The translations under genes were made by a program, and so were the position numbers. DNA of 64,000 bases from Pseudomonadota bacterium (GTDB lineage: Bacteria > Pseudomonadota > Gammaproteobacteria > Burkholderiales > JAKAFK01), in the NCBI GenBank assembly GCA_021788645.1, contig JAJYKK010000005.1, positions 1 through 64,000 of the forward strand, written 5' to 3'. Shown in pieces: positions 6,850 to 52,415 of this stretch. The notes beneath the pieces are model-generated. The model saw only the letters and a list, made by a program, of their open reading frames with translations. It did no database searches and was not told the origin of the DNA. The stretch's first letter is position 1, and every line of letters starts with the position of its first letter.

Positions 6850-7056
6850 TCCGCCGGGGCCGCAAGTGCCGTGCTGCGCCTCGCCCCGGGGGCGCGCCCG
6901 GCCTGCCCGTCGACGCAGGCCACGCGCGCGGATGACGGGTCTCGCCTTTCAAGCGCTGCCCGGCTAGACCATAATTCAGCAAGACGGCGCCGCGCAACGG
7001 GCGCTGGTGCGCGCGCCCTCCGTCCCATTGCACCGCATACCACCGGGGATAAGCCC

Positions 7057-7923
7057 TTGGCTCGCTGGACTGATCGCATCCGCCTGGACGATGGACGCTG
7101 GCTAGCCTTCTCGGAGTCGGGCCATCCGCAAGGCACGCCGGTTTTCGTGTTCCATGGACTCCCAGGCTCCCGCCTGCAGCAGCACCCGGATGAGGGCATC
7201 GCGACGTCGCTTGGCGTGCGTCTGATCGGGATCGACCGCCCCGGGTATGGGCAGTCGGATTTCAACCCGCGCCGCAGGATCCTGGATTGGCCCGACACGG
7301 TCCTTGCCCTGGCCGATCGATTGGGCGTCGGGCGCTTTCGCGTGGCGGGGATCTCCGGGGGCGCACCCTATGCGCTGGCCTGCGCCTCAAGGCTTCCCGG
7401 CCGCCTGGACGGCACGCTCATCATCAGCGGAGCCGGCCCCTACGACGCATTCCGCGACGCCGACAGGGGACGGCCCCATCGGCTGGCGTTGACCTTGGCA
7501 CGCCATGCGCCCTGTCTGCTGCACCTTTCGGCCAGCTGGATGGCGCGAATGGGATGCCAGTCCCCTGACCGCTACCTCGATCGGCTTAGCCGCGCCCTGG
7601 CGCCGGTCGATGGCGAAATTCTGGCGCGCGCCGAGGTCCGGCGCATGTTCCGGTCAGACCTGCCCGAGGCCTTCCGGAGCGGCCCGCGGGGCATGCTTCA
7701 TGACCTCTCGCTCCTTGCCCGACCATGGGGATTCGGCCTCGAAGACATCCGTGCCACCGTGCACTTGTGGCACGGCGAGGCCGACGCCTCGGTCCCCGTT
7801 GGCGTGGCACGCCACCTGGCGGCAACGCTGCCGCGCTGCCGTGCCCACATTCTCCCGGCGGACGGTCATTTCATGGTGCTCGAGCGCTGGCGGGAGGTTC
7901 TCGCGCACTGGCTGGCGGCCTGA
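7057..7923 (+). CDS. Alpha/beta-hydrolase fold protein
   Basis: A 288-residue alpha/beta hydrolase. The oxyanion-hole strand reads FVFHGLPGSR, the nucleophile elbow GISGG holds the catalytic Ser, and DGHFMVLE near the C-terminus gives the catalytic His. The acid is probably the Asp in HGEADASVP. Homology begins at ARWTDRIRLDDGRWLAF, so the TTG at 7057, preceded by GGGGATAAG, is chosen; a longer frame from an ATG at 6871 would add a low-complexity Arg/Ala tail. Substrate is unknown (esterase, lactonase or haloperoxidase-like). It stands alone about 200 bases after the PDH operon. Confidence 0.75.
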   Translation: MARWTDRIRLDDGRWLAFSESGHPQGTPVFVFHGLPGSRLQQHPDEGIATSLGVRLIGIDRPGYGQSDFNPRRRILDWPDTVLALADRLGVGRFRVAGISGGAPYALACASRLPGRLDGTLIISGAGPYDAFRDADRGRPHRLALTLARHAPCLLHLSASWMARMGCQSPDRYLDRLSRALAPVDGEILARAEVRRMFRSDLPEAFRSGPRGMLHDLSLLARPWGFGLEDIRATVHLWHGEADASVPVGVARHLAATLPRCRAHILPADGHFMVLERWREVLAHWLAA

Positions 7924-7993
7924 TGCAGCCAACCGCGGCAGGGGCAATTGCGGTTTCCCCAGGAGCACATCCCCGAGCGCGAGCGAACGAACC

Positions 7994-8022
7994 TATTCTC
8001 AGGCGGTTCCGCACCCGGCATA
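7994..8022 (+). promoter_or_regulatory. Putative sigma70 promoter of the SIMPL gene
   Basis: TTCTCA (7994-7999), 17-base spacer, CATAAT (8017-8022). Four and five of six positions match consensus. It would give a leader of about 130 bases before the SIMPL-domain gene. Confidence 0.35.
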
Positions 8023-8162
8023 ATGGGGGGCACGCTCATGAGGCGGACCGGGGACACGGCACGCGGGCGTCCGCGCGCGGGGCCGCGCCCCTGGACCGCG
8101 CACCCGGAACCGGCAAGAATATTCGGCGCCCGCCGCGCGGCGCCCTGCCCTAGGAACAGACC

Positions 8163-8894
8163 ATGCGCCGTGACGTCCTGCACTCCAATGCCACCGGCCT
8201 GCTGCTCGTGTCGTTTCTGCTGCTTCCGGCCGCAGGATGGGCCGATGGATGCTCCGGCGCGCGCATCAGCCTGAGCGCTCGCGCCGAGGCCGCGATACCC
8301 AACGACGAAGCGGTCGTGGATTACCGGATCGAGGCCAAGGGGGCCGATCTCGGCGCCTTGCGCAGCCAGATCAACGGCATCGGCGAGAAGATCAAGGACC
8401 GGCTGGATCGGGAACCGGACGTGGCACAGCGCACCACCGACCGGGTTCTGCTACAGATTTCCCATTACGATGAGAACCTTCACCGCCAAGTCGACGAGGG
8501 GTGGCGACTGGTGCAGTCCGGCGAGGTGACCAGTCGCAATCCCGGCCGGGTCGCGGCGTGGCTCGGGGCGATCGAGCGGGACGGCGCGCAGGTGCGCTCC
8601 CTGCGCTATCAGGCATCGGATCGCGAGCAGGCCGCCGCCCGCGCACGCCTGCGCAGCCACGCCATCGGCGACTTTCTTTCCCAGGCTGCGGCAACGGCGC
8701 GGGCACTGGGTGCCCACTCCTATCGGATCCTGAGTCTTGCGACAAGCGCCCCTACGCAGCAGCCCTATCCCTTTCGCGGGCAGGCGGCCTTTGAAAATGT
8801 GGCTGCCCCTGCGCTGACCGCCGGAACGAGCACGATCCGGGTTAGCGTCACAGGCGAGATCTTGTTGCCCGCACGCAGCTATCCGGCCCATTGA
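8163..8894 (+). CDS. Periplasmic SIMPL-domain (DUF541) protein
   Basis: A 243-residue exported protein. A signal peptide spans about 1-27 (hydrophobic core GLLLVSFLLLPAA, cleavage after GWA). The mature part fits the SIMPL/DUF541 fold: an early ISLSARAEAAIPNDEAVVDY strand, a long helical middle containing LGALRSQINGIGEKIKDRL, and a C-terminal IRVSVTGEILL strand. SIMPL proteins (YggE-like in E. coli) occur in the periplasm, and their biochemical role is poorly defined. AGGAAC lies seven bases before the ATG. It is monocistronic. Confidence 0.75.
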   Translation: MRRDVLHSNATGLLLVSFLLLPAAGWADGCSGARISLSARAEAAIPNDEAVVDYRIEAKGADLGALRSQINGIGEKIKDRLDREPDVAQRTTDRVLLQISHYDENLHRQVDEGWRLVQSGEVTSRNPGRVAAWLGAIERDGAQVRSLRYQASDREQAAARARLRSHAIGDFLSQAAATARALGAHSYRILSLATSAPTQQPYPFRGQAAFENVAAPALTAGTSTIRVSVTGEILLPARSYPAH

Positions 8895-9047
8895 AGCGCG
8901 ACCGCGACCTCGCCTGCCGCCCGCTCCGAGCCCCCGTTGGCACTTCCCTCCTTGCGGCTCGAGGCGCGGCATCACGGGCCGGCGGCCCCGGCCGCGCCCC
9001 GTGAATGGAATGCCGCTCCGGCGACAGATGATCACTCGCCCTTATCG

Positions 9048-9076
9048 TTACCATAACTAATATTGACTGTTCTTTA
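9048..9076. promoter_or_regulatory. Candidate CbbR (LysR-type) operator upstream of cbbM
   Basis: Two adjacent matches to the TNA-N7-TNA pattern recognised by CbbR: TTA-N7-TAA (9048-9060) and TGA-N7-TTA (9064-9076). They lie in an AT-rich block (9040-9187) that must contain the cbbM promoter. The pattern is loose and AT-rich DNA matches it easily, so this is a suggestion only. No cbbR gene is in the window. Confidence 0.3.
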
Positions 9077-9187
9077 TGCACGCAATTCCGTACACTATTT
9101 CCCCTATTTCCGACATGGTTTCATGGCTTTTCTCAGAAAGATTTGGTCGCCGGTCGCGGGAATGGCATTCATAAATTAGGAGCAATG

Positions 9188-10567
9188 ATGGATCAGTCTG
9201 GGCGTTATGCGAATTTAAACCTGAAGGAAGCCGACCTCATCCGCGACGGCCGGCACGTGTTGTGCGCCTACGTCATGAAACCCAAGGCGGGATACGAATA
9301 TCTCGCCACCGCCGCCCACTTCGCGGCGGAGTCCTCGACAGGAACCAATGTCGAAGTCTGTACCACGGATGCCTTCACCAAGGGCGTGGATGCACTCGTC
9401 TACGCGATTGAGCCCGAAAATGAGGTCATGAAGATTGCCTACCCAATCGAGCTGTTCGATCGCAACATCATCGACGGGCGCGCCATGCTGGCTTCATTCC
9501 TCACCCTCACGATCGGCAACAACCAGGGCATGGGGGATGTGGAATACGCCAAGATGTACGACTTCTACGTACCGCCCAAGTACCTCCAGCTCTTCGACGG
9601 CCCGGCGATGAACATCGCCGACATGTGGCGCGTGCTCGGGCGCCCGATGGTCAACGGCGGCATGGTCGTGGGCACCATCATCAAACCCAAGCTGGGTCTG
9701 CGCGCGCAGCCCTTTGCCGATGCCTGCTATCAGTTCTGGCTCGGCGGCGATTTCATCAAGAACGACGAACCGCAAGGCAATCAGGTCTTCGCACCGCTCA
9801 AGGAAACGATCACCGCCGTGGCCGATGCCATGAAGCGCGCGCAGGACGAAACCGGCGAAGCGAAGCTCTTTTCGGCCAACATCACGGCGGATGATCCGTT
9901 CGAAATGATCGCCCGCGGCGAATACATCCTGTCGGCGTTTGGCGAAAACGCGAACCATGTCGCCTTCCTCGTCGACGGCTATGTCGCCGGCCCGACGGCC
10001 GTCACGACCTGCCGCCGCCACTTTCCGAACCAATTCCTCCACTACCACCGCGCCGGACACGGCGCCGTGACTTCGCCGCAGGCGAAGCGCGGCTATACGG
10101 CCTTCGTCCACTGCAAGATGTCCCGCCTGCAGGGCGCTTCCGGAATCCATACCGGCACCATGGGGTATGGCAAGATGGAAGGCGATGCCAAGGATAAGAA
10201 CATCGCCTTCATGCTGGAACGCGACAGCGCCGACGGTCCCTTCTACCACCAGGAATGGTATGGGATGAAGGCCACCACCCCGATCATCTCGGGCGGCATG
10301 AACGCCTTGCGCCTGCCCGGCTTCTTCGACAACCTGGGCCACTCCAACGTGATCCAGACCTCCGGTGGCGGCGCATTCGGCCATAAGGACGGCGGCACGG
10401 CAGGCGCGAAGTCCCTGCGCCAGGCCCATGACGCTTGGCAAAAGGGCGTCAGCCTGGTCGACTATGCCAAGGAACATCCCGAACTGAAGGGCGCCTTCGA
10501 GTCCTTCTCCTGGGATGCGGACGCGCTCTACCCCGGTTGGCGTGACGCCCTGAACCTTCACAAATAG
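9188..10567 (+). CDS. cbbM: Ribulose-1,5-bisphosphate carboxylase/oxygenase, form II
   Basis: A 459-residue form II RuBisCO, the CO2-fixing enzyme of the Calvin cycle, cytosolic dimer. The N-terminus ([17 protein letters not shown]) and the length match the R. rubrum enzyme. The carbamylated Lys191 and the Mg ligands Asp193 and Glu194 sit in [10 protein letters not shown] at the same numbering; [10 protein letters not shown] supplies the catalytic Lys of loop 2. AGGAG (9178-9182) is spaced correctly for the second of two tandem ATGs (9188), which is chosen; the alternative at 9185 adds one Met. There is no small-subunit gene, as expected for form II. No cbbQ/cbbO genes follow; an intrinsic terminator ends transcription. 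This is the strongest evidence for autotrophy in the window. Confidence 0.98.
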
Positions 10568-10592
10568 GCCCGGCGCCACGCGCCGGTGACGC

Positions 10593-10625
10593 ATGGCCAC
10601 GGAAGCGCTCCGTGGCCATTTTTTT
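10593..10625 (+). terminator. Intrinsic terminator of cbbM
   Basis: An 11-base perfect stem, ATGGCCACGGA (10593-10603) with TCCGTGGCCAT (10609-10619), and a run of seven T residues (10619-10625). Confidence 0.92.
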
Positions 10626-10639
10626 GCGCGCCGCCCCAT

Positions 10640-10668
10640 AAAAAAACGCCACCCGGAGGTGGCGTTTT
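10640..10668 (-). terminator. Intrinsic terminator of cspA
   Basis: Minus-strand stem AAAACGCCACC (10658-10668) with GGTGGCGTTTT (10643-10653), tetraloop TCCG, then a T-run read through 10640. It lies about 20 bases past the cspA stop and back to back with the cbbM terminator. Confidence 0.9.
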
Positions 10669-10687
10669 CAGGCTGATCGCTTGTCGA

Positions 10688-10891
10688 CTACGCGTTCTGG
10701 ATATTCGAGGCCTGCTTGCCCTTCGGACCTTGCGTCACGTCGAACGACACTCGCTGCCCTTCCTTGAGCGTCTTGAATCCGTTCATCTGAATCGCCGAAA
10801 AGTGCGCGAACAGATCTTCGCTCCCGTCGTCAGGAGTGATGAATCCAAATCCCTTGGCGTCATTGAACCACTTTACGATACCAGTTGCCAT
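10688..10891 (-). CDS. cspA: Cold-shock protein, CspA family
   Basis: A 67-residue single cold-shock domain, the usual length. The RNP1 motif KGFGFIT and RNP2 motif DLFAHFSAI are intact. Such proteins bind single-stranded RNA/DNA and act as RNA chaperones. The ATG has GAGGTAGG upstream. A near-perfect promoter about 110 bases upstream gives a long 5' leader, as is typical of cold-inducible csp genes whose leader refolds at low temperature; whether this copy is cold-induced is not visible. The specific paralogue letter is uncertain. Confidence 0.95.
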
Positions 10892-39978: not shown

Positions 39979-42900
39979 GTGCACGCAGGATTGGTGACAG
40001 ATAGCGGCCCAGCGCCGCAGGGTGGCGCGTGCGCCACATGCGATCCATTGCAATTGTGGATAGGGGTTCGCAACTGGCGTGCGGCCCGCGCCCGCCGCCG
40101 CCCTTTTCGTCTGTTCCGGGCCGGTTGCCTGGTGGCCATGGTCGGGCTTTGCGCCCTGGCGCTGACGGGCCGCGCGCACGCGGGACCGGCGCCGTCGATC
40201 GCCTTCTTCTACGGCGGGCATCCCCCGATCGACGTCCTCGCCGACTTCGACTGGGTCGTGGTCCAGCCGGACGCCCTTAAGGATCCCGCCGCGCTAGCCA
40301 GCCCGCACACCCGCGTGTTTGCCTACGTTTCTCTGGGCGAGGCGGAAACCGATGGGCACACGGCGGCTGCATTGCCCGCCCCGTGCCGCCTCGGCGAAAA
40401 CGGTCCCTGGAAGAGCTGGATCGTCGACCAGCGCATGGCCGTCTGCCGCACCGTCTATGCCCGGCATGTCATCGCACCCTTGCTGGCGCGCGGCTACCGC
40501 GACTTCTTCTTCGATACGCTCGACAGCTACCGCTTGGTCCTCAAGACACAGGCACAACGCCAAGCCTACCGCAACGGATTAATCTCACTGATCAGGAGCG
40601 TCCATCAGGCCGATCCGGGCGGCCGGATTCTCCTGAACCGCGGGTTCACGCTGCTCGATGCCCTCAAAGGCCAAGGGATCGTCGGCGTCGCCGCGGAGTC
40701 CCTGTATCGCGGGTGGGACCAAGCCACGCAGCAATACATCGCGCTCGCCCCGTCCGATACACGCGCGCTTCTCGCCCGGCTCGACCGCGTTCGCCGACGC
40801 GGACTGACGGCCATCGCCATTGACTACCTGCCGCCCGGCGACGTTGCCAAAGCCCAGCGACTCGCCCAACGCATCGCGCGCCACGGCATCGTTCCCTACG
40901 TCGCCGATGCCCAGCTCGAGACCGTCGGGGTAAGCACCATCACCGCGCTGCCGCGCAAGGTGCTCATGCTGTATGCCGGCGCCGGCGATGCCATGAACAA
41001 CAATCTCAACTGGTATGCGGCCATGCCGCTCAACCATCTCGGCTACGCGACACGCACCGTCGACGTGAGCCGCGAGCGCCTGCCTTCAGGCCCGCTTACC
41101 GGCCAAGTCGCCGGCATCGTGACGTGGTTCGATGGAAGCCGTTTCCCTCATTCCGCCGCCACCTGGCGCTGGCTGCGCCGGCAAATGCAAGCCGGCGTGC
41201 CGGTGGCGATCCTGGGCGACTTCGGGTTGCCCGCAAGCAGCACCACTTTGCTGCCGCTCGGACTCAGCCTGGGCACGGCGCCCCCTCCCGGCCTCAACGC
41301 GGCGCGCATCGCCGTCAGAGACCCTCGCTATCTCGGGTTCGAGAATCCCGTGGTGCCGAGCGCCCCGGATTTCAGTCCGATCCAGCTCGAACGGGGCACG
41401 CCCCTCCTCACGCTGACGGTCGCAGGCAGCACCGAAGTGGCGGCCGGACTGACACCCTGGGGCGGATACTGCCTCGCCCCTTACGTGCTGCGAAACCTGC
41501 CGCAAGGGGATCTTCCGAAGGCCCAGCAGCAAGCCGCATGGATCCTCAATCCGTTCCGCTTCTTCCGCGCGGCCCTGCGGCTACCGACCATCCCCGCGTA
41601 TGACTATACCACCGCGAGCGGGCGCCGCCTGCTGTTCGCCCTCATCGATGGCGATGGCTTTTCGAACGGCTCCTGGATCGGCGCCTTCCATGGACAACCC
41701 GCGGCCAAGGTCATTCTCGATCAAGTCCTCCAGCGCTTCCCCCTACCGGTCACCGCGTCCGTGATCGCCTCGGAATTCATAGATCAGGGGGGCCTTCATA
41801 CGCCGGCCGAGGTCGCACAACTGCGCCCCATCGCGCGCGCCATCTTCGCCCTCCCCTGGGTGGAGATCGGTAGCCACACCTATTCCCATCCCTTCGACTG
41901 GAGCGCGCTCGAGCAGGATCCGGATCTGTCGACGGGCCTGCATCTGCGCACCGGAGCAGCCGGCACCCCGGTCTATGTGACCGACCAGGCCTCACCCCTC
42001 AAATACGGCTACAACCTGCCCGTGCCGGGCTACCGCTTCAGCGCCAAGATGGAAGTTGCCGGTTCCGCGGACATTATCAACCGCCTGTTGGCCCCCCCCG
42101 GCAAAAAGGTCGAGGTCATCCAGTGGTCCGGCGATACCGATCCCGATGCCCGCGTCCTGAGCATCGCCTACGAGAGCGGTTTGACCAACATCAACGGCGA
42201 CAACAGCACGATCACCCGCGCCCACCCTTCGCTCACCAACGTGGTGCCGCTGGGCGCCTGGAAGGGTTCCTACTTTCAGGTCTATTCGCCGATCGCCAAC
42301 GAGGACGAATTCACCCACGGCTGGCAGCCGCCATACTGCGGCTACGCCCAAGCGATCCAGACCATGCAGATGACCAACCGTCCCCGCCGCCTGGCGCCCA
42401 TGGAGATCTACTACCACTTCTATTCCGGCGCGCGCCCGTGTGGTCTGGCAAGCCTCCTGCAGGTCTACCAGTGGGCGCAAAAACAACCCAGCACACCGGT
42501 CTTCGCGTCGACCTATAGCCGCATTGCCGTGGACTTCGAATCCGCGGGCATGGCGGCATCGGCCGATGGCGACATACTGGCCCGTCATTATGGTCATGAT
42601 CAGGAGATTCGCATCCCTTTATCCGTTGGATATCCGGATCTCTCGCGCTCGCGCAACATCGCGGGATACGATGACTTCGGCAATCAGCGCTATGTCCACC
42701 TGGGGCCCGGCGGCAACGCCGCACTCTATCTGCAGGACTCCCCTCCGCACGAGCCTTACCTGAGGAGCGCCAACGGCGTGGTCCGGGCGCTCACCCGTGC
42801 GCCCGGACAATTGACCCTCACCCTGCGCGCGCAGGTGCCCTTGGACTTTACGCTCGGCAACGCCGCTCGTTGCCGCACGCAGGTCGACCATCAGATCCGT

Positions 42901-42984
42901 CACGGCGGCCGCGAGCCGCATGACGCCGTGCATTTTGCGCTCAAGGCGCACCGCGCGCGCATCGACGTCAGCTGTGGCTCCTGA
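39979..42984 (+). CDS. pelA: PelA, Pel polysaccharide deacetylase and hydrolase
   Basis: A periplasmic multidomain enzyme of up to 1001 residues. After an export signal (hydrophobic LVAMVGLCALALTGRAHA, ending about residue 68) comes a GH166-type glycoside hydrolase (about 72-310) with probable catalytic Asp179 (FFFDTLDSY) and Glu240 (VAAESLYRGWD). A reductase-like middle domain follows (about 325-520). The C-terminal CE18 deacetylase has metal-binding Asp557/Asp559 (LIDGDGFS) and His633/His637 (GSHTYSHPF). It deacetylates and trims Pel during secretion. The N-terminus before residue 45 is not conserved-looking; a TTG at 40054 is an alternative start. First gene of pelABCDEFG. Confidence 0.95.
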   Translation: MHAGLVTDSGPAPQGGACATCDPLQLWIGVRNWRAARARRRPFRLFRAGCLVAMVGLCALALTGRAHAGPAPSIAFFYGGHPPIDVLADFDWVVVQPDALKDPAALASPHTRVFAYVSLGEAETDGHTAAALPAPCRLGENGPWKSWIVDQRMAVCRTVYARHVIAPLLARGYRDFFFDTLDSYRLVLKTQAQRQAYRNGLISLIRSVHQADPGGRILLNRGFTLLDALKGQGIVGVAAESLYRGWDQATQQYIALAPSDTRALLARLDRVRRRGLTAIAIDYLPPGDVAKAQRLAQRIARHGIVPYVADAQLETVGVSTITALPRKVLMLYAGAGDAMNNNLNWYAAMPLNHLGYATRTVDVSRERLPSGPLTGQVAGIVTWFDGSRFPHSAATWRWLRRQMQAGVPVAILGDFGLPASSTTLLPLGLSLGTAPPPGLNAARIAVRDPRYLGFENPVVPSAPDFSPIQLERGTPLLTLTVAGSTEVAAGLTPWGGYCLAPYVLRNLPQGDLPKAQQQAAWILNPFRFFRAALRLPTIPAYDYTTASGRRLLFALIDGDGFSNGSWIGAFHGQPAAKVILDQVLQRFPLPVTASVIASEFIDQGGLHTPAEVAQLRPIARAIFALPWVEIGSHTYSHPFDWSALEQDPDLSTGLHLRTGAAGTPVYVTDQASPLKYGYNLPVPGYRFSAKMEVAGSADIINRLLAPPGKKVEVIQWSGDTDPDARVLSIAYESGLTNINGDNSTITRAHPSLTNVVPLGAWKGSYFQVYSPIANEDEFTHGWQPPYCGYAQAIQTMQMTNRPRRLAPMEIYYHFYSGARPCGLASLLQVYQWAQKQPSTPVFASTYSRIAVDFESAGMAASADGDILARHYGHDQEIRIPLSVGYPDLSRSRNIAGYDDFGNQRYVHLGPGGNAALYLQDSPPHEPYLRSANGVVRALTRAPGQLTLTLRAQVPLDFTLGNAARCRTQVDHQIRHGGREPHDAVHFALKAHRARIDVSCGS

Positions 42985-42987
42985 CCC

Positions 42988-43806
42988 ATGGATTTGCTGA
43001 CCCCCGCTCTCGAGCATCGCGACCCTTACTATGCAACCCTTGCGGAGCGTCGCGTCGGCGCGCACCAGGCGGCGCCGCGTGAACACTTCGCGCCCCTGTG
43101 GTTGCTCGCCAGCCTGATTCTCGCCACCCTCGCCGCGCTCTTGTTTCTCTATCCCAGGCCTTACCTCCTGAAGACCCTGCGCGACCATCCCCAACCGACC
43201 TTGGCGACGCTTGCCTATCTGCGACTCATGGTCATCGAGCAGCCTAGCGCCGCCGACACGCGCCTTCTGCTCGCGCAGGAGGCGCTTGCGGCTGGCGACT
43301 GGCCATTGGCACGCGATGCGCTTTCGCCATGGCGCGACAAGGCCCCTTCAGCCGTGCCGCCCGAGGTCGCCGCCATGCGGCTGCGCCTGCAACAGGCCGA
43401 ACTCGGCAGCCCGCGCACCTTATCCGCTCGCCGTGACGCGCTTTCCAAGGCATATGTGAAAGACCTCTTGGCACTCGCACCCCATATGGCGCCGTCTACA
43501 CTCCGGCATGCAATCACCGTCGTCGCCTCGCTCGGGCACTACCAGACGTCGGCTCGCCTGTGCACCCTCCTCATCCGGCGCACCCGGAACCCGGCGCTGC
43601 GGCAAGCGGCCTTCGATAGCGGCATCAAGGCCCTGCTGGCATCCGGCGACGCGGCGGCCGCCCTCGCCTTTGCTCAGGCCGATCTGCCGCTCATGCCGCC
43701 GTCGCGCATCCTCTGGCGCGAGATGACACGGCTCGCGCTGCAGGCGGGCAACGCGAGAATGGCTGCCGAGTATGCCCACCATCTCGTCAAACTGCCCTCC
43801 TCATGA
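42988..43806 (+). CDS. Membrane-anchored TPR-like protein, separate N-terminal part of PelB
   Basis: A 272-residue protein with one membrane helix (about 36-55, LWLLASLILATLAALLFLY) followed by helical repeats (about 75-270) in TPR style. It lies between pelA and the barrel-encoding pelB, overlapping the latter by four bases. In P. aeruginosa PelB is one chain of 1193 residues with an N-terminal membrane helix, many TPRs and a C-terminal barrel. Here this gene plus the next add up to 1225 residues with the same domain order, so PelB appears split into an inner-membrane TPR protein and an outer-membrane protein. The assignment rests on position and topology, not on sequence identity. Confidence 0.75.
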   Translation: MDLLTPALEHRDPYYATLAERRVGAHQAAPREHFAPLWLLASLILATLAALLFLYPRPYLLKTLRDHPQPTLATLAYLRLMVIEQPSAADTRLLLAQEALAAGDWPLARDALSPWRDKAPSAVPPEVAAMRLRLQQAELGSPRTLSARRDALSKAYVKDLLALAPHMAPSTLRHAITVVASLGHYQTSARLCTLLIRRTRNPALRQAAFDSGIKALLASGDAAAALAFAQADLPLMPPSRILWREMTRLALQAGNARMAAEYAHHLVKLPSS

Positions 43807-46664
43807 GGTTCATACGTTCCGCAGCCCGCCAGACGAACGCCCTATGGGGCCTGCTGGCCGTGATGGCGCTAAGTGCGATGGCCGCGCCCGGCGCGTCCCC
43901 CGCGCCGAAGCGACCCCCGCCCGCGCCTCGCGTCTCGCAACGCGAGGACTGGAATCTCGCTTGGACCGCATTTGCCGGGGCTGGCGAGATCAACGATGCC
44001 TATCTGCTGGCAAAGCACGCCGTCCGGCTGTATCCGGATTCTCGCGCATGGCTGACCAGGCTCGCGCAGGCCGCCGGCTGGACGAGCCACCCCAAGGACG
44101 CCCTTGCCGCGCTCGAACGCCTCGCCCTTCATTGCCACGAGCAGGCCGATCTCGAGCCCGCCCTCAATCTGGCGATCGGCCTCGGCGACACCCCGAAGAG
44201 CATCGCGGTGCTGCGGGAGATGATTCGCCTGCATCGCGCCACCCCCGCGCAGTCCCGAATGCTGGTGAGCCTCTACCTGGATGACGACAAGCCGCAGCAG
44301 GCCATCCGCGCGCTGGAACGGACATTTGCCCGAGATGGCGATCCTGCCGCCTTGTGGGAGGAGGTGGTCATCTATCGCATGATCGGCGATCCGGCGCACG
44401 AACGCGCCACGCTCTCGCGCTACCGCGATCGCTTTGGCCCCACCGTGCAAGTCATGTTGGCCATTGCCACCCTGGACTACACGCAAGGCCGGCTGCACCC
44501 GGCGCTCGACGCCCTCCTGGCCGCCGAGCCCGGCGCCCGGCCGACCGACACGGCCTACTGGCAGACGCTGAGCGGGCTCGCCTGGGCGCTTGGTCGCTAT
44601 CCCGCGGCCGCCAACGCCGCTCAGGCGCTCATCGCAGGCGGGACAGCCGACGCCTCCATATACCAGCGCGCACTGTATGTCGCGCAATACCGCCATCCCC
44701 GGCACGCCTTCGAAATCGCCCGCCAAGGCTGGAGGCGCACGCAGGATCCGGCCCTGTTCCTCGCCATGCTGGACATCGCTTCCCGGATGCAGCCCGAGAC
44801 ACCGTGGCTGCATCGTGCCTTCCACGGCCTTGACCGGCTGCAGATCGAGAAGCTGGCGGGCTATCCTTCCTATTGGACGAGCCTCGCAAGCTTGCGCGCC
44901 GCCCAAGGCCGCCATTTGGCGGCACGTGCCGCCTACCAGCGCGCCTTGGCGCTCGACCCGGGTGACAGTGGCTTACTGGCCGGCTATCTGTGGCTCCTCG
45001 TCGACAGCGGCGACGCCGCTGGAATCCGCCCCATGTTGGGTCCGCTCGCCCGAGAGGCGCGCGCATCCCCCGAGCTCGCAGATGCATTGGCTGCAGCCTA
45101 CACGCAGCTCCATGAGCCGCAACGCGCGCTGCCCTGGCTGGCGCGCGCCTGGCCGACCCGCAAGAACGACCCGCTTTGGCTCATGAACTATGCCGACACG
45201 CTGGAGCAGGCCGACCATGCCGATGCCGCATGGACGTTGCGGCGACGGGCCTACGGCCTGCTCGCCCAGGCCCAGGCGGCGCCGCAAAGCCCGAGACGCG
45301 CCCGCGCCCGCGCGCGCCTGCGCAGTCTCGCCCAACTGGCCTCCACCCTCGCGCCGGGCGATCCGGCCCGAACACGCATCGAGCGGCTCGCAACACGCCC
45401 CGACTCGGCGCAAGCCCGGATCGCCGTGCTGGCATGGACACTGGATCAACAAGCCTACCCCCTTGCCCGCTGGTGGTGGTTGCGGGCGTTTGTGCGTCAG
45501 TCCCCGCCCGCCTGGGCCCAGTTGTCCATGGCACTGGCCCGGGAGGATGGAAGCACGCTGTCACGACTGCTGACGCGGCAGCGCGACGCGCTCCCGCGCC
45601 GTGACCGCGTCGATGCGGCGCGAAAGCTCGGATGGACCTCCCTTGCGCAGAGCCTCGCCTTTCAGGGACTGGCTGGCGAACCGCGTGACGAGCGCCTCCA
45701 GCGGCAATTCCGCGCCCTTGCGCTGCGAGGCAGCGACAGCGTCGGCATCCGTCCCGCGGTGACCGAAGAAAGCAGTCTGCTGAGCCAAGCCCTCAGGCTG
45801 CGTGCGGCCCACTGGCTTTCGCCGCGTGATCTGCTCACGGCCCAAATCGATACCGCCTATCAGCGCACGCTGGACCTCACGCAGATCGGCACCCCCCCGT
45901 CCATGAGCCATCGCTGGCTGCTCGGCTGGCAACACGGTGTCAGGCATGGTCAACTGTCGGTGGACCTCGGCGCCGGCAGCAATGTCGCGTCATGGTCCCG
46001 CTTCGGGTTCGGCTGGCACGCGCGGTGGAGCCACTGGCTCGAAACCACTTTGGGCGCGACGGCGGGAATGACACCCGACGATACGGCGGCGCTGAGCGTC
46101 GGCGCGGTGGAAAACCGCGTCAGCGGCGCGGCCTTCGCCCAATTGACGCCCCGCACGTTGGTCCAGGCGCAAGCGAACATGGGACAGCTGCGCGCGCAAG
46201 GCGGCGGGAGCCTGGGCATCGCCCGCCGTTTTGCGCTGGATGCGGACTACCAGCTCTGGTTCGCGCCCCCTGATTTCACGTTGCACGCCTCCGTCAGCGG
46301 CGCGCACTACGACCCAGCCGCCACCGTGCCGAGCCAGCTCGATGCGCTGGTGCCCTCGGACGAGACCCCGGCCGTCGACTTCTTTGTCCCTGCGAGCTTC
46401 ACACAAGCGTGCGGCGGCGCCCACTTCAACATGCAGTACGAAACCCTGTATACCGCCCGGCTACGTCCGTATGCCAGCGCCGATTTCTGCGCCAACAGCG
46501 TCGACGGCCCCGGCTATGACTTGACCGCGGGCCTCGCCATGCCTGTCCTTGGTCCGGACCACCTGTCCTTGAGCCTCGCCCTCGAGAACAACGTGGGCAG
46601 CCAAGGGGGGCGAACCCAAAGCGTCATGCTGCGTTATCGCCACTACTTCTCCCCAACGCAATGA
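43803..46664 (+). CDS. pelB: PelB, TPR scaffold and outer-membrane beta-barrel
   Basis: A 953-residue exported protein with its own signal peptide (about 1-32, LWGLLAVMALSAMAAPGA). Residues about 50-600 are TPR-like helical hairpins rich in Ala, Leu and Arg (for example AARAAYQRALALDPGDSGLL). The last 280 residues alternate hydrophobic and polar positions like a beta-barrel and end in VMLRYRHYFSPTQ. PelB exports Pel through the outer membrane and brings PelA to it by TPR contacts. It lacks the N-terminal membrane anchor, which is in the preceding gene. Confidence 0.92.
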   Translation: MRFIRSAARQTNALWGLLAVMALSAMAAPGASPAPKRPPPAPRVSQREDWNLAWTAFAGAGEINDAYLLAKHAVRLYPDSRAWLTRLAQAAGWTSHPKDALAALERLALHCHEQADLEPALNLAIGLGDTPKSIAVLREMIRLHRATPAQSRMLVSLYLDDDKPQQAIRALERTFARDGDPAALWEEVVIYRMIGDPAHERATLSRYRDRFGPTVQVMLAIATLDYTQGRLHPALDALLAAEPGARPTDTAYWQTLSGLAWALGRYPAAANAAQALIAGGTADASIYQRALYVAQYRHPRHAFEIARQGWRRTQDPALFLAMLDIASRMQPETPWLHRAFHGLDRLQIEKLAGYPSYWTSLASLRAAQGRHLAARAAYQRALALDPGDSGLLAGYLWLLVDSGDAAGIRPMLGPLAREARASPELADALAAAYTQLHEPQRALPWLARAWPTRKNDPLWLMNYADTLEQADHADAAWTLRRRAYGLLAQAQAAPQSPRRARARARLRSLAQLASTLAPGDPARTRIERLATRPDSAQARIAVLAWTLDQQAYPLARWWWLRAFVRQSPPAWAQLSMALAREDGSTLSRLLTRQRDALPRRDRVDAARKLGWTSLAQSLAFQGLAGEPRDERLQRQFRALALRGSDSVGIRPAVTEESSLLSQALRLRAAHWLSPRDLLTAQIDTAYQRTLDLTQIGTPPSMSHRWLLGWQHGVRHGQLSVDLGAGSNVASWSRFGFGWHARWSHWLETTLGATAGMTPDDTAALSVGAVENRVSGAAFAQLTPRTLVQAQANMGQLRAQGGGSLGIARRFALDADYQLWFAPPDFTLHASVSGAHYDPAATVPSQLDALVPSDETPAVDFFVPASFTQACGGAHFNMQYETLYTARLRPYASADFCANSVDGPGYDLTAGLAMPVLGPDHLSLSLALENNVGSQGGRTQSVMLRYRHYFSPTQ

Positions 46665-46676
46665 AGGAGCCAACCC

Positions 46677-47234
46677 GTGAACCGTCTCTCACACGTCGTC
46701 TCGACCGCCGCCCTGGGCTTGGCCCTGCTGGGCCTCGGCGGGTGCGCCTCCACCCGCCTCGATGCATCCCCCGCGCCGAGACTCGCCTCGCGGGCCGTCT
46801 GGAGCGTCGCGCCGCCCGTCAACAACACCGTCACGCCCTATGCGGCAGGGCGCGTGCAGAGCCAGCTTGCCGCGCTGCTCAGTGCGCATGGCGTGCAGCA
46901 CGTCCTGCTGGTACCGCCGAGTGCCCCGGGCGGCCCCCTGCCCATCGACAACGGGACGCAGAACGAGCGCGCGGCGCTCGCCTGGGCGAGCCGCCACCAG
47001 GCGCGCTACGCCTTGCTGGGAAGCGTTGACGAGTGGGAGTACAAGATCGGCCTCGACGGCCAGCCGGCGGTCGGGTTCACGCTGAGGCTCGTCGATCTCA
47101 AGACCGGGGGCGTCGTCTGGAGCGGTGCGGCCTCCGCCAGCGGCGGGAGCCGCGAGGGGCTCGCGGTCCTCTCGCAGGGGGTCTTGAACGATCTGATCAA
47201 CCGTCTGCTCCCCGCCGGCGGCCACGGGGCCTGA
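46677..47234 (+). CDS. pelC: PelC, outer-membrane lipoprotein of Pel export
   Basis: A 185-residue lipoprotein. The lipobox LGGC places the lipidated Cys at 23. The mature domain has the PelC fold features: VAPPVNNTVTPYAAGRV, a long helix, and FTLRLVDLKTGGVVWSGAAS, whose Trp faces the ring interface in known PelC dodecamers. PelC rings sit on the periplasmic side of the PelB pore and funnel the polymer. Start is GTG at 46677, with AAGGAG at good distance; it follows pelB by 12 bases. Confidence 0.92.
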   Translation: MNRLSHVVSTAALGLALLGLGGCASTRLDASPAPRLASRAVWSVAPPVNNTVTPYAAGRVQSQLAALLSAHGVQHVLLVPPSAPGGPLPIDNGTQNERAALAWASRHQARYALLGSVDEWEYKIGLDGQPAVGFTLRLVDLKTGGVVWSGAASASGGSREGLAVLSQGVLNDLINRLLPAGGHGA

Positions 47235-47235
47235 C

Positions 47236-48543
47236 ATGAACGCCGCCGCCCGCCAAGACTCCAACCTGATGGTCTGGACGGAGGTCCTGCTCCTGCCGAT
47301 CATTGGCGTCGCCTTAGCGGCGTGGCTCAACGACGCCACCCCGTTCACCGTGTCGCGCTACCCCTGGCTTTGGCTGATTCCGCTCTTCCTGGGGCTGCGG
47401 CATGGGCTTGCGGCGGCGGCGGCGGCGAGCTTCTCGCTCGCCGTGGCCAGCATCGCGAGCCACCGGCTTGGCCTGGCCGGCGAAGCCCCTCCCCTCATCC
47501 ACCTCGTCGGCGGCGCCTTCGCGGCGTTAGGTGCAGGGCAGTATAGCTCGCGCTGGAGACAACAATTGGGCGCGGCGCTCGCGCGCACGGACTATACGGA
47601 GGAGCGGCTCGAATCCCTCACCCGGACGTTTTTCATCACGCGCCTGTCGCACGACCGTCTCGAAGAAGCACTCATCACGCAGCCTGCAACGCTGCGCGGC
47701 GCCATGGAAGCCCTCCGGCCCCTGGGCGCCGAATCGCCTGAGGGCATTTCACCGGCAGGCGCCGATGCGCTGCTCCAACTGCTCGCCCACTATTGCCGCT
47801 TCGAGGCCGCGGCCCTGCATCTTTATCACAACGGGCGACTGAACGATGAAGCGATCGCGGGGCTCGGGCCATCCATGCCCCTGTCGCGCACGGATCCTTT
47901 ATTGGCATTTGCGCTGGAGGACGACCAAGCCGCCTATCGCAGCGTCGACGAGCTCGAAGACCCGGCAGGAGATTATCGCGCAGTCTTCCCGGTGGTCGAC
48001 GCCGCCCGGGAGCGGCTGGGGATGCTGGTCGTGCGCGATCTGCCGCTCCTCGCGCTCACCGAGGAGAACCTGACGGTCGCCACCGCCATGTTGCAGTACT
48101 TTGCCGACGAGAGCTGGGCTGCGGCGCAGAGCGCGACCCTGCGGCAGCGTGCGCCCGACTGCCCGGCGGAATTCGCCCACGAGCTCATCAAGCTGCAGCA
48201 CCTCCATGACAAAAGCGGGGTGCGCTCGACCCTGATCGCCCTGCGCGCGCGCGATCCCCAAGCCCAGACCTTCCTGCTGGAGGCGATCTATGAGATGCGC
48301 CGGGGCCTGGATCTTTACTGGCGCTTGCCCTCGGGCGCCGGCCATCCGAGCATGCTCATTCTGCTGCCGCTGGCCGGGCCCGCCACCGCCCGCGGATTCC
48401 TGGAACGCATCGCCGGCCTCCTGCGCGCGAAGGGACTTGAAGGCGGACTGGAAGCCGCCGGATTCACCGTCGCCGAGATTGCCGTCGATCACCGGCCACC
48501 CTCCGCCCTGCTCGCGGCGTGCGGCATCGGGCAGGCCTCATGA
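47236..48543 (+). CDS. pelD: PelD, inner-membrane c-di-GMP receptor
   Basis: A 435-residue protein: four membrane helices (about 14-105), a short coiled coil (about 105-140), a GAF domain (about 160-300) and a degenerate GGDEF domain (about 310-430). The c-di-GMP-binding RxxD is Arg356-Gly-Leu-Asp359, followed by YWRLPSG; the cyclase active-site motif is absent. In known systems PelD activates Pel synthesis when c-di-GMP is bound. It forms the inner-membrane complex with PelE, PelF and PelG. Overlaps pelE by four bases. Confidence 0.93.
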   Translation: MNAAARQDSNLMVWTEVLLLPIIGVALAAWLNDATPFTVSRYPWLWLIPLFLGLRHGLAAAAAASFSLAVASIASHRLGLAGEAPPLIHLVGGAFAALGAGQYSSRWRQQLGAALARTDYTEERLESLTRTFFITRLSHDRLEEALITQPATLRGAMEALRPLGAESPEGISPAGADALLQLLAHYCRFEAAALHLYHNGRLNDEAIAGLGPSMPLSRTDPLLAFALEDDQAAYRSVDELEDPAGDYRAVFPVVDAARERLGMLVVRDLPLLALTEENLTVATAMLQYFADESWAAAQSATLRQRAPDCPAEFAHELIKLQHLHDKSGVRSTLIALRARDPQAQTFLLEAIYEMRRGLDLYWRLPSGAGHPSMLILLPLAGPATARGFLERIAGLLRAKGLEGGLEAAGFTVAEIAVDHRPPSALLAACGIGQAS

Positions 48544-49532
48544 GCGCGCATTTGGCGATCCTGCTATCCCCCTGGTTACGTCCGGCCCCGGCCGGCGCGG
48601 CGGGAGCCCTGATCGCACAATTGCTGCTGGTCAACGTCCTGTTCAGCGCGCTCCTTGCCCCGGTCACGCGTCGTGCCCTGCCCCGCCGCCTTCACGGCCA
48701 TCCGGCGCCCAATGTGGCTGCCCTCGCCGCTTTCGGCAGCCTGCTGCCGCTGCTCGGTCCGCTCGTCCTTCTGCTGATGGCGCTCGTCTATCCGTCCCTG
48801 GAAAAGGCACCCCGCCGAGCACCGCAGGTTCTCCCGCCACTCGCCTTCACGGCCGAAGCCCGCAGCCGCTTCAGCCGCTTCGGGGCAGGCGGCGCCATTG
48901 CGCAGCTGCGCAATGGCGCGACGGGCAGCGAGCAGGGTTCACGCGCGCTGCTGGCCATCGAATCCCGCCGCAACCAAGCGACCACGCAGCTGCTGACCGA
49001 AGCCCTGAGCCATCCCGACGAGACCCTCCGCCTGCTTGCACACAACTTGCTGACGCGACGCGAGGAGGACATTGTCACCCCCATGAGCCGGCTCGAGGAA
49101 CGTCTTCGCGGGCAAACCGCCGTGCCGGGGCGTCTGGCCCTCGATCTCGCCGAACTCCATCTTGAATTTCTCTATCTTGGCATCGCGAGCGGCAGCCTGC
49201 GACACCTGCATACCGAGGCGGCGGCGCAACTCCTGGACGGGATCGGCGACCCCCCCGCGCACGCCCCTTGGCGCAACCGCTGGCTCCTCGCCCAGGCCCG
49301 CTTGCGGCGGGAGCGGCATCCGGCTGACGTGGCCGACATCGAGGCCTACCACGCTCAGGCGCTGGCGGCGGGCACGGCGCCGGCACGCGCGCTGCCCTGG
49401 CTTCTGGAGCGGGCCTGGCGGGCGCGGGATTATACCCGCGTGCGCAGCCTGATTTCGCGCTATCCGCCGTTCGCCCTGCTGCCGCTCATCGGTCCCGCGG
49501 CGTCGCGCTGGAGGAGAAGACCTCGTGCCTGA
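48540..49532 (+). CDS. pelE: PelE, inner-membrane TPR-like protein
   Basis: A 330-residue protein matching PelE in length (about 329) and place. Two membrane helices (about 18-45 and 62-88) precede a helical region of TPR type (about 110-310), including RLALDLAELHLEFLYLGIAS. It is thought to bridge the synthase complex and other Pel proteins. The ATG at 48540 overlaps the pelD stop (ATGA); the end overlaps pelF by eight bases. Identification relies on order and topology because PelE is poorly conserved. Confidence 0.87.
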   Translation: MSAHLAILLSPWLRPAPAGAAGALIAQLLLVNVLFSALLAPVTRRALPRRLHGHPAPNVAALAAFGSLLPLLGPLVLLLMALVYPSLEKAPRRAPQVLPPLAFTAEARSRFSRFGAGGAIAQLRNGATGSEQGSRALLAIESRRNQATTQLLTEALSHPDETLRLLAHNLLTRREEDIVTPMSRLEERLRGQTAVPGRLALDLAELHLEFLYLGIASGSLRHLHTEAAAQLLDGIGDPPAHAPWRNRWLLAQARLRRERHPADVADIEAYHAQALAAGTAPARALPWLLERAWRARDYTRVRSLISRYPPFALLPLIGPAASRWRRRPRA

Positions 49533-51039
49533 CACCCCATCATCGCCCGAAGCATGCGACGTCACGCTGCTGCTGGAGGGCACCTACCCCTACATCAAAG
49601 GCGGGGTATCGACCTGGGTCCACCAGCTGATCGGCGCGCTTCCGCAGTGGCGCTTCGGCGCCGTGTTCGTCGGCTCGCGCCAACAAGACTATGGCGGCCT
49701 GCAATACCAGCTGCCCTCCAACCTGGTGAGCCTGCAGACCTTCTACCTGTTCGACGAGCTCACCCCACCGCGGATCAAGCCGCCCCGCCTTCCCGACGAT
49801 ACCGCGACCCGATACGCTGCCCTGCACGAATCGTTGCGGGCAGGACGCTCGGAACCGCTCGACTTCCGCGATCAGCTCGAGCCGGGCCAGCCGCTGAGCG
49901 AGGAGGCCTTCCTGTACGGCGAGCCCGCTTGGCGCTTCATCACCGAAGCCTACGGGGCCAATGCCACCGACCCGTCCTTCGTGGACTATTTCTGGACGAT
50001 CCGCAACATGCACCGTCCGATCTGGACGCTGGCCCGCGCCGCCCGCACCCTTCCTCCCTCGCGCCTGTTTTTCAGCCCCTCGACGGGTTACGCCGGCATG
50101 CTGGGCGGGCTCGGCGCGCAGCGGCAGGGGCGGCCGTTCATGCTGATGGAGCATGGCATCTACACCAAGGAGCGGCGCATCGATCTGATGAATGCGGCAT
50201 GGGTCAGCGATTCGCGCAACCCATTGGAGCGCGATCCCACCGAAGTGAGCCACCTGCGCGAACTGTGGATTCATTTCTTCGAGATCCTGGGCCACCAGGC
50301 ATACCGCCGCGCGAGCACCATCATCAGCCTGTTCGAAGCGGCGCGCCAGCAACAGATCCGCGATGGCGCCGAGCCCGCGCGCACGTGCATTGTTCCCAAC
50401 GGCGTGAACATCGGCCAACTGGCCCGCCTGCGCCGGCCGGCCGGCACCCCGCCGCCTCCCGTCATTTGCCTGCTGGGCCGCGTCGTGCCGGTGAAGGACA
50501 TCAAAACCTTCATTCGCGCCGCCCATGCATTGCAGCAGCGCCTGCCGGCTGCGCAGGCGTGGATCGTCGGCCCCGAGGACGAGGATCCTGCCTACAGCCG
50601 CGAATGCCATGAGCTCACACATGCCTTGGGGCTCGGCGAGACGGTACGCTTCTTCGGCTTTCGGCGAATTGACGAAATACTGCCGCAGGTCGGCGTGCTG
50701 GTGCTCACCTCCATCAGCGAAGGGCAACCATTGTCCGTACTGGAAGGATTTGCGGCCGGCCTGCCCTGCGTGACGACCGATACCGGGGCTTGCTCGGAAC
50801 TCGTATACGGTCGCGGCGCCGACGACAAGGCGTTGGGTTCGGCCGGCACGGTCGTGGGCCTCGCCGACCACGAGGCGATCGCCCGCGCCTGCGCCGCCCT
50901 GCTGGACGATCCTGAAGCCTATGCGCGCGCCGCCCAGACGGCCGTGTGGCGCGCCGAGCGCTATTATGACGTGCGCCAAATGATCGGGGCCTTGGACCGC
51001 CTGTTTCGCACCCACACTCACCCGGAGGGCGCCCGCTGA
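49525..51039 (+). CDS. pelF: PelF, glycosyltransferase (Pel synthase)
   Basis: A 504-residue cytosolic GT4-family glycosyltransferase that polymerises UDP-GalNAc into Pel. The N-terminal acceptor half begins DVTLLLEGTYPYIKGGVSTW, a PelF signature; the donor half has LGRVVPVKDIKTFIRAA and the E-x7-E element SEGQPLSVLEGFAAGLPC (catalytic Glu pair). Length equals P. aeruginosa PelF (507). It overlaps pelE by eight bases and shares one base with the pelG start. Confidence 0.96.
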   Translation: MPDTPSSPEACDVTLLLEGTYPYIKGGVSTWVHQLIGALPQWRFGAVFVGSRQQDYGGLQYQLPSNLVSLQTFYLFDELTPPRIKPPRLPDDTATRYAALHESLRAGRSEPLDFRDQLEPGQPLSEEAFLYGEPAWRFITEAYGANATDPSFVDYFWTIRNMHRPIWTLARAARTLPPSRLFFSPSTGYAGMLGGLGAQRQGRPFMLMEHGIYTKERRIDLMNAAWVSDSRNPLERDPTEVSHLRELWIHFFEILGHQAYRRASTIISLFEAARQQQIRDGAEPARTCIVPNGVNIGQLARLRRPAGTPPPPVICLLGRVVPVKDIKTFIRAAHALQQRLPAAQAWIVGPEDEDPAYSRECHELTHALGLGETVRFFGFRRIDEILPQVGVLVLTSISEGQPLSVLEGFAAGLPCVTTDTGACSELVYGRGADDKALGSAGTVVGLADHEAIARACAALLDDPEAYARAAQTAVWRAERYYDVRQMIGALDRLFRTHTHPEGAR

Positions 51040-52415
51040 TGGCCGGGATCGGCTTTGAACTGCGCCGCTTGAGCCGCTCCAGAACGTACACCGGCCTTCT
51101 GCGCGCCTATCTTTATGCAGGAATCATAGGTTCCGGGCCCTGGGTGCTCTCGATTCTGGCGATCCTCGTCCTCGGGGTCATGAGCCTCGGGCTCGTCGTA
51201 CCCGCGAGCAAGATCAGCGACTTCCAGACAAGCGTCACCTGGCTGATCGCGCTCAGTCTCATCTATTCCGGCGGCACCCAGCTCGTCTACACCCGCTACG
51301 TGGCGGATCGGCTGTTTGAGCGCGAGAGCGGGCGGGTGCTCCCGAGCCTCCTGGGCATGCTGCTCGTGACGACGGTGCCGCTGTTCGTGCTGTCCATTCC
51401 GTTGGCGCTGTGGCTGCTGCCGGGCACGACGCCGGCCTACCGTCTGCTGATGATCGTGGGCTTGAGCATGCTCAATATCGTCTGGACCCTCACCGTGCTG
51501 CTCTCGGGCCTCAAGAGGTACCAAGGGCTGCTGACGCTCTACCTCCTGGGATACGGCAGCTCAATCGCCTTGGGGCTCTGGCTGGGCCGCGCGGGCCTGG
51601 GCATGGAAGGGCTGTTGCTCGGTTTCCTGCTCGGGCAGGTCGTCATCATCATGGGCGCATTGGCGCTCGTCTGGCTGGAATATCCCCCCGGCCAGCTGGT
51701 TGAGCTGGATTTTCTGCGCCATGGACAGCTGCGGCTGTGGCTCCTGCCTGCCGGCATATGCTTCAATGCGGGCGTCTGGGCAGACAAATTCCTGTTCTGG
51801 CTATGGCCGGGTACCGGAGAGCGCGTGATTGGCGACCTGCACGCCTCGGCGATCTACGATACGCCGATCTTCCTCGCCTACTTCACGCTCATCCCCGGCA
51901 TGGCCATGTTCTTGCTCCGCATGGAGGTCGACTTCGTCGGCGCCTACGATCGGTATTACCATGCGGTGCGCGAGGGGGGCTCGCTGTCCGCGATTCGCGC
52001 CCACCGCGCGGAGATGGTGGTCACGGCACGCGAGGGCATCTATGACATCATCAAGATTCAGGGATTCACGCTGCTGGCGCTGATGGCCCTCGGCCCCTCC
52101 CTGCTCACATTCTTCCGCATCCAGCCCCTCTATTTTCCGCTGCTCGCCATCGATACGGTGGGCGTCAGCCTCCAACTGCTGGTCATGGCAGGGCTCAACA
52201 TTTTGTTTTATCTTGACCGTCTGCGCTTGGCCGCCGCGATCACCGCGCTCATGCTCGCAGCCAATCTGGCGCTCACCACCTTGAGCCTCGAACTGGGACC
52301 GCTCTTCTACGGCTATGGCTTTGTCCTGGCCATGCTGCTCACGACGCTGGTCATGCTCGCGACCACCGACCGCGTCCTGGACAAGTTGACGTACTCGACG
52401 TTCATGTTGCGCTGA
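51039..52415 (+). CDS. pelG: PelG, inner-membrane exporter/partner of PelF
   Basis: A 458-residue membrane protein with about 12 helices, Wzx/MATE-like (PelG is 456 residues in P. aeruginosa). The N-terminus MAGIGFELRRLSRSRTYTGL is the family signature; VWADKFLFWLWPGTGERV and FLLRMEVDFVGAYDRYY are conserved loops. It works with PelD, PelE and PelF to move the chain across the inner membrane. Last gene of the operon; no strong terminator follows. Confidence 0.95.
   Translation: MAGIGFELRRLSRSRTYTGLLRAYLYAGIIGSGPWVLSILAILVLGVMSLGLVVPASKISDFQTSVTWLIALSLIYSGGTQLVYTRYVADRLFERESGRVLPSLLGMLLVTTVPLFVLSIPLALWLLPGTTPAYRLLMIVGLSMLNIVWTLTVLLSGLKRYQGLLTLYLLGYGSSIALGLWLGRAGLGMEGLLLGFLLGQVVIIMGALALVWLEYPPGQLVELDFLRHGQLRLWLLPAGICFNAGVWADKFLFWLWPGTGERVIGDLHASAIYDTPIFLAYFTLIPGMAMFLLRMEVDFVGAYDRYYHAVREGGSLSAIRAHRAEMVVTAREGIYDIIKIQGFTLLALMALGPSLLTFFRIQPLYFPLLAIDTVGVSLQLLVMAGLNILFYLDRLRLAAAITALMLAANLALTTLSLELGPLFYGYGFVLAMLLTTLVMLATTDRVLDKLTYSTFMLR

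Follow-up and report, generated by a model that had tools for sequence, protein, structure and literature searches.

Division of the exporter PelB between two genes in a pel operon of a Pseudomonadota bacterium and its relatives

The stretch of DNA analysed here (the window) comprises positions 1 to 64,000 of contig JAJYKK010000005.1, part of the draft assembly GCA_021788645.1 (107 contigs) of a Pseudomonadota bacterium assigned to Burkholderiales, and it carries a pel operon in which PelB, the exporter that brings the biofilm sugar Pel from the inner to the outer membrane, is encoded by two open reading frames (ORFs), pelB1 and pelB2. The same two-gene arrangement is found in 15 genomes, with a membrane helix on the first gene product and a signal-peptide-like N-terminus on the second, and this split is old, inherited and common to a whole lineage of relatives. 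The two products probably dock non-covalently to form a conduit between the inner and outer membranes, with coupled translation and export of Pel.

The two pelB genes

The features of the pelB region of the window are as follows.

42988-43806, forward strand: pelB1, a predicted inner-membrane-anchored tetratricopeptide repeat (TPR) protein of 272 amino acids, equivalent to about residues 1-283 of Pseudomonas aeruginosa PelB
43090-43149, forward strand: predicted uncleaved membrane anchor of PelB1, about residues 35-54, from hydropathy, a model helix at 37-54 and alignments
43693-43794, forward strand: last TPR of PelB1, residues 236-269, the best conserved PelB1 window and a candidate docking face
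43803-43806, forward strand: ATGA overlap of the pelB2 start and the pelB1 stop
43803-46664, forward strand: pelB2, a predicted outer-membrane exporter of 953 amino acids with a TPR scaffold and the PelB C-terminal beta barrel
43803-43886, forward strand: predicted Sec signal peptide of PelB2, MRFIRSAARQTNALWGLLAVMALSAMA, with cleavage predicted before A
43950-44051, forward strand: first TPR of PelB2, residues 50-83, a candidate docking face (rank 1 of 475 windows in the PelB2 TPR region)
45729-46646, forward strand: PelB C-terminal beta barrel, PF24604 (164 bits, E 6.2e-48)

The small protein, PelB1, has a single hydrophobic helix that is not followed by an AxA cleavage motif, has no lipobox, and continues into a TPR fold; the ..LL[FY]P motif after the anchor is also present in fused PelBs in the alignments. 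The AlphaFold model places the membrane helix at residues 37-54 followed by TPR helices, with a predicted local distance difference test (pLDDT) score of about at least 90 over most of residues 70-260, and its best structural matches in the PDB are TPR superhelices. PelB1 alone matched no family in Pfam or NCBIfam, while a single-sequence PDB search returned generic TPRs only, and a family profile was therefore needed. The profile of 14 PelB1 homologues matches P. aeruginosa PelB (9h80) over residues 4-201 (E 3.6e-15), and hhalign against the N-termini of fused PelBs aligned 248 columns (probability 99.9%, E 3.5e-34). By profile comparison, then, PelB1 is the N-terminus of PelB, as the original prediction for this DNA had proposed, and the search that could have placed it in an unrelated family led to PelB N-termini instead. 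One PelB1 match (L005 in G012), the sole match besides itself among 60 relatives, was discarded, as it overlaps an unrelated membrane protein.

The larger protein, PelB2, contains TPR_15 (PF13429, E 2.5e-59), and its barrel scored 159.8 bits against PF24604 (cut-off 31, E 1.5e-46) in a search separate from the one listed above. Residues 59-638 of PelB2 match residues 299-871 of P. aeruginosa PelB (9h80, E 7e-9). A signal-peptide-like N-terminus is present on the second ORF in all split loci with the start covered. The summed length of the two proteins, 272 + 953 minus a signal peptide of about 28 amino acids, is about 1197 amino acids against 1193 for P. aeruginosa PelB. The earlier reading of the locus thus held for both ORFs and their positions, the four-base overlap, the signal peptide predicted on the 953-residue protein, and a summed length equal to that of a normal PelB. 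Judged from the sequence, the topology of PelB1 and the cleavage of the PelB2 signal peptide are predictions, and the ATGA overlap suggests translational coupling of the two genes.

The proposed survey of pel operons for the same split used species-sampled genomes searched with PF24604, which gave 32 genomes above the cut-off, 28 of them with a scoreable PelB region. Fused PelBs were found in 20 of these and split PelBs in 8 including the source genome, that is, in 7 of the 27 other species. A split-type profile run against named genomes added 7 scoreable split loci (L045-L048, L051-L053), found in metagenome bins, one of them an Acidiferrobacter sp. assembly; the PelB2 of L045 is 85% identical to that of the window. 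The 4-nt overlap occurs in 13 of the 15 split genomes (12 of 14 besides the source), with ATG, GTG or TTG starts, the exceptions being a 5-nt gap in L053 and a longer overlap in L051. Both genes are single-copy in the source genome, and PelB1 was found only next to PelB2 in all five split genomes searched.

A single pelB gene broken by a sequencing error or decayed into a pseudogene might be suspected, as the two frames overlap and the assembly is a draft. However, the split recurs in 14 other, independently assembled genomes, including a genome in a single contig (G415), the second proteins have signal peptides of their own, and purifying selection acts on both genes (dN/dS of 0.26-0.31 for pelB1 and 0.21 for pelB2 in the comparison of the window with L045). 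The recurrence of the layout together with purifying selection excludes chance, and the conservation of the split refutes a frameshift or pseudogene, an explanation that retains practically no probability; the original claim of a true split was borne out. Moreover, a real frameshift does exist in a relative (L033 in G321, reverse strand, about 8512-8731), where two overlapping frames, from error or decay, lie within pelB2 and away from the junction. Programmed frameshifting at the overlap could additionally yield a fused PelB1-PelB2 chain, since the pelB2 frame of the window is open from 43620 and the two frames overlap by about 185 nt. In L046, however, the pelB2 frame opens just 6 nt upstream of the start, in L053 the genes are 5 nt apart, and a fused product would carry the signal peptide midway along the solenoid, which makes this addition highly improbable.

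Inheritance of the split and the junction series

In the tree of 35 PelB proteins, all split forms lie on one side of a single branch, with modest support for the whole group (84/62) and values of 100/99 for a core of 12 rows. The tree of PelF, which is encoded by an independent operon gene, likewise places the split rows on one side of a branch (99/93). When rooted with Cetobacterium and Alphaproteobacteria, the PelF tree has the tight-turn fused PelBs at the base and the split clade (99/94) as sister to the other fused clade (99/97), the two joined at 97/99. A single origin of the split would be consistent with both trees. According to the kinship labels, fused linker-type pel operons occur in the window's own order, while the closest split operons occur in other orders of the class, and this distribution suggests horizontal transfer of the split operon (window 39979-52415). 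One genome of the same genus gave no match to PF24604.

The junction alignment places the split within a series. The flanking TPRs are 6-7 residues apart in tight-turn PelBs, nine of ten members of the sister fused clade have a linker of 24-112 residues (11 residues in L044), and in the split forms the gene break lies at the site of the linker or turn. In the AlphaFold model of one linker-type relative, residues 291-380 mostly have pLDDT below 50 and lie between two TPR blocks at about 90 or more; VIA-align of this model gave ranges covering both TPR blocks, and because the root-mean-square deviation exceeds 15 for long alignments, a continuous superhelix is not settled by it. We infer that the loosening of one TPR turn preceded fission or happened at about the same time; the sister relationship of the linker and split clades leaves the order of the two events unproven.

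Alternatively, the ancestral exporter may have been two proteins, with fusion derived and the linker a fusion scar, and Azospirillum, which lies close to the outgroup, also has a divided PelB. This direction of change is quite unlikely, as the rooted PelF tree has tight-turn fused PelBs at the base with the split clade nested within the linker-plus-split group (97/99), and the Azospirillum break lies at a different place. That other division is found on plasmids of Azospirillum thermophilum and A. lipoferum (L088, L095), with proteins of 1018 + 526 amino acids in A. thermophilum.

A further break is present in L036 (G338, reverse strand 6793-10801), where PelB is encoded in three pieces: 286 amino acids with a membrane helix, 547 amino acids with a signal peptide and TPRs, and 504 amino acids with a signal peptide and the barrel. 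Both neighbouring gene pairs overlap by 4 nt, and three export signals are predicted. Its relative L043 (G176) has a two-part PelB with a long low-complexity stretch at the site of the second break of L036. On the scale of a P. aeruginosa-like PelB, this break falls at about position 725, shortly ahead of fragment 762-1193, which has been reported to be sufficient for assembly of the PelBC complex (PMC12141448). As the second break falls at the linker site of L043, the Pel conduit may comprise up to three separately exported segments. More generally, the inner-membrane and outer-membrane parts of PelB might be modules that evolution can separate, with one loosened TPR turn becoming a disordered linker in one clade and a break with a new signal peptide in its sister, and with non-covalent docking between TPRs, visible as a local rise of conservation in both clades, maintaining export; this wider proposal, the three segments included, is tentative, although nearly as credible as its opposite. 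The series of tight turn, linker and gene break at one site, possibly repeated at a second, offers a clean case of a membrane-spanning machine divided into modules.

Probable docking of the two proteins

In the proposed mechanism, PelB1 would be kept in the inner membrane by its uncleaved N-terminal helix, with its TPRs in the periplasm next to the PelD/E/F/G synthase. PelB2 would be exported by Sec via its own signal peptide, its barrel would be inserted in the outer membrane and its N-terminal TPRs would be directed inward. There, it may assemble with PelC and, by position, would carry the regions that bind PelA and PelC. In P. aeruginosa, PelB binds PelA via residues 332-436 and PelC within residues 762-1193 (PMC12141448); by simple offset, the PelA-binding region corresponds to about residues 92-196 of PelB2. 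The two solenoids would dock end to end, through contact of the terminal TPR of PelB1 with the first TPR of PelB2, giving a non-covalent conduit from membrane to membrane, and the gene overlap would couple translation of the two proteins, presumably in equal stoichiometry. Provided that the two proteins are produced as annotated, the link between the membranes has to be non-covalent, as originally suggested; the docking itself is the part that we infer.

Conservation scored in windows of 34 residues points to the facing TPRs. In the split forms, the top-ranking windows of PelB1 and of the PelB2 TPR region are those listed above, and in divergent subsets the last TPR of PelB1 ranks 1-2 and the first TPR of PelB2 ranks 2-8 of 476; given autocorrelated windows and related sequences, no probability is attached to these ranks. 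The conserved facing residues are L249, A253 and A259 of PelB1 and L52, F57, W83 and R86 of PelB2. Linker-fused PelBs have the equivalent N-side window at rank 1 of 212, whereas the corresponding segments of tight-turn fused PelBs are average (113 of 209 and 287 of 466). Such raised conservation resembles the pattern expected if a docking surface had taken the place of a covalent turn.

Several observations weigh against docking. The C-side equivalent window of the linker forms ranks only 54 of 457, with the maximum about 20 residues deeper in the second block; one subset has a second TPR stretch (at about PelB2 residue 249) that is more conserved than the first TPR; and the conserved facing TPRs could reflect another partner across the junction, such as PelA, PelC or sugar. 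In addition, one genome (G762) encodes a mini-PelB of 634 amino acids with a signal peptide, few TPRs and the barrel (L078, reverse strand, about 5126-7030), preceded by a PelA-like ORF of just 317 amino acids (the hydrolase end), and no PelB1 was detectable anywhere in this genome; some systems may therefore manage without the inner-membrane half.

The total absence of PelB1 from G762 would also suit a different arrangement, in which the halves form no bridge, PelB1 acting as an inner-membrane adaptor with PelD/E/G or PelA and PelB2 as a lone outer-membrane exporter. The break separates PelB1 from both of the P. aeruginosa binding regions given above (PMC12141448), and the fused relatives tolerate a long flexible linker at the junction site. 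On the other hand, only in forms that have lost the tight turn do the gap-facing TPRs stand out among the best conserved stretches of each protein, and production of the two proteins appears to be coupled, to judge by the order of the genes and their almost constant overlap; two halves that work apart are accordingly the less likely arrangement, though one with a real chance, and end-to-end docking is favoured.

Known systems and the surrounding genes

P. aeruginosa PelB (9h80, PMC12141448) resembles the window system in homology over most of its length, an uncleaved N-terminal membrane helix, a TPR scaffold, a barrel, an adjacent PelC and a total of about 1195 amino acids. It differs in being one covalent chain, and in PelBs of its kind an ordinary TPR turn of 7 residues occupies the break site. 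The window system departs from this single-chain model, as originally claimed, with two ORFs and a separate signal peptide conserved in 15 genomes. A physical bridge of PelB across both membranes has been proposed, but is unproven, for P. aeruginosa (PMC12141448), and PelBs that are split in nature suggest that no covalent bridge is needed. They also provide ready-made soluble halves with predicted interface residues, with which the existence of a trans-envelope conduit, and the points at which it can be opened, could be tested.

In Azospirillum, the pel operon likewise encodes an inner-membrane-anchored TPR protein and a separate barrel protein with a signal peptide; the break is far closer to the barrel, which leaves nearly all TPRs on the inner-membrane piece, and the PelF lineage is distant. 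The linker-type fused PelBs of Burkholderiales and related genomes (L027-L029, L070-L072, L074-L076) form the sister clade and share the same two modules and conserved facing TPRs, but are single chains with a low-complexity linker; PelF places Cupriavidus, Caballeronia and Azonexus among this lineage. For alginate, AlgK is an outer-membrane lipoprotein, unlike PelB1 with its predicted uncleaved N-terminal membrane helix and no lipobox. The two systems can be likened by architecture, as TPR scaffold and outer-membrane barrel are on separate proteins, and AlgK and AlgE have been proposed to act as one exporter (PMC9734138).

A figure legend in a 2020 survey (PMC7112194) mentions 'pelB fission' in 'aquatic thermophilic species', a division of pelB within the pel operon for which the legend gives no break position, taxa or mechanism, and which might include divisions like that of Azospirillum. 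On the strength of this legend, the kind of split was already known and the novelty implied by the original prediction is reduced; the literature search found no text on a split PelB beyond the legend. No description was found in the same search of the break site, clade-wide inheritance, linker series, three-way form or conservation pattern.

The remaining genes of the pel operon in the window are as follows.

39979-42984, forward strand: pelA, with a GH114 domain (PF03537, E 5.2e-12) and a deacetylase-like C-terminal part
46677-47234, forward strand: pelC, putative lipoprotein with lipobox LGGC, GNA1162/LpoB-like
47236-48543, forward strand: pelD, predicted receptor of cyclic diguanylate (PF16963 PelD_GGDEF, E 1.5e-23)
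48519-49532, forward strand: pelE, from position and a weak HEAT-type match only
49525-51039, forward strand: pelF, glycosyltransferase (NF038011 PelF equivalog, E 6.3e-188)
51039-52415, forward strand: pelG, inner-membrane transporter (PF16933 PelG, E 6.2e-135)

The complete pelA-G gene order surrounds pelB1 and pelB2, with pelE assigned from position only, and the genes that mark a pel operon (pelA, C, D, F and G) are present, including the PelF equivalog, the PelG transporter and a PelD with a degenerate GGDEF domain. PelA is 33-87% identical to PelA at the matching operon position in relatives. The matches of PelC to GNA1162/LpoB-like families are below cut-off, the lipobox is present, and pelC adjoins PelB2 in every locus compared. 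An Rfam search of the region gave no match. In one relative (L034 in G289), the PelA-like protein adjoining a split PelB has 689 amino acids and apparently lacks the N-terminal GH114 hydrolase part.

Other pel-like loci were also observed. On plasmids of Cereibacter and Sulfitobacter (L089, L090), pelF-pelG clusters are annotated with a polysaccharide biosynthesis/export family protein and a separate polygalactosaminidase, with no TPR-barrel PelB among the annotations, and a different outer-membrane exit for a Pel-like polymer is possible. A Cetobacterium somerae plasmid (L091) carries a pel-like operon with no PelB or PelC among its annotations; Fusobacteria have an outer membrane.

Elsewhere in the window, an ORF of 995 amino acids (3862-6849) appears by eye to combine two lipoyl domains, an acyltransferase (E2) and a dihydrolipoamide dehydrogenase (E3) in one chain, and it adjoins genes for E1 alpha and beta. 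The ORF at 9143-10567 resembles form II RuBisCO by eye, which suggests an autotroph.

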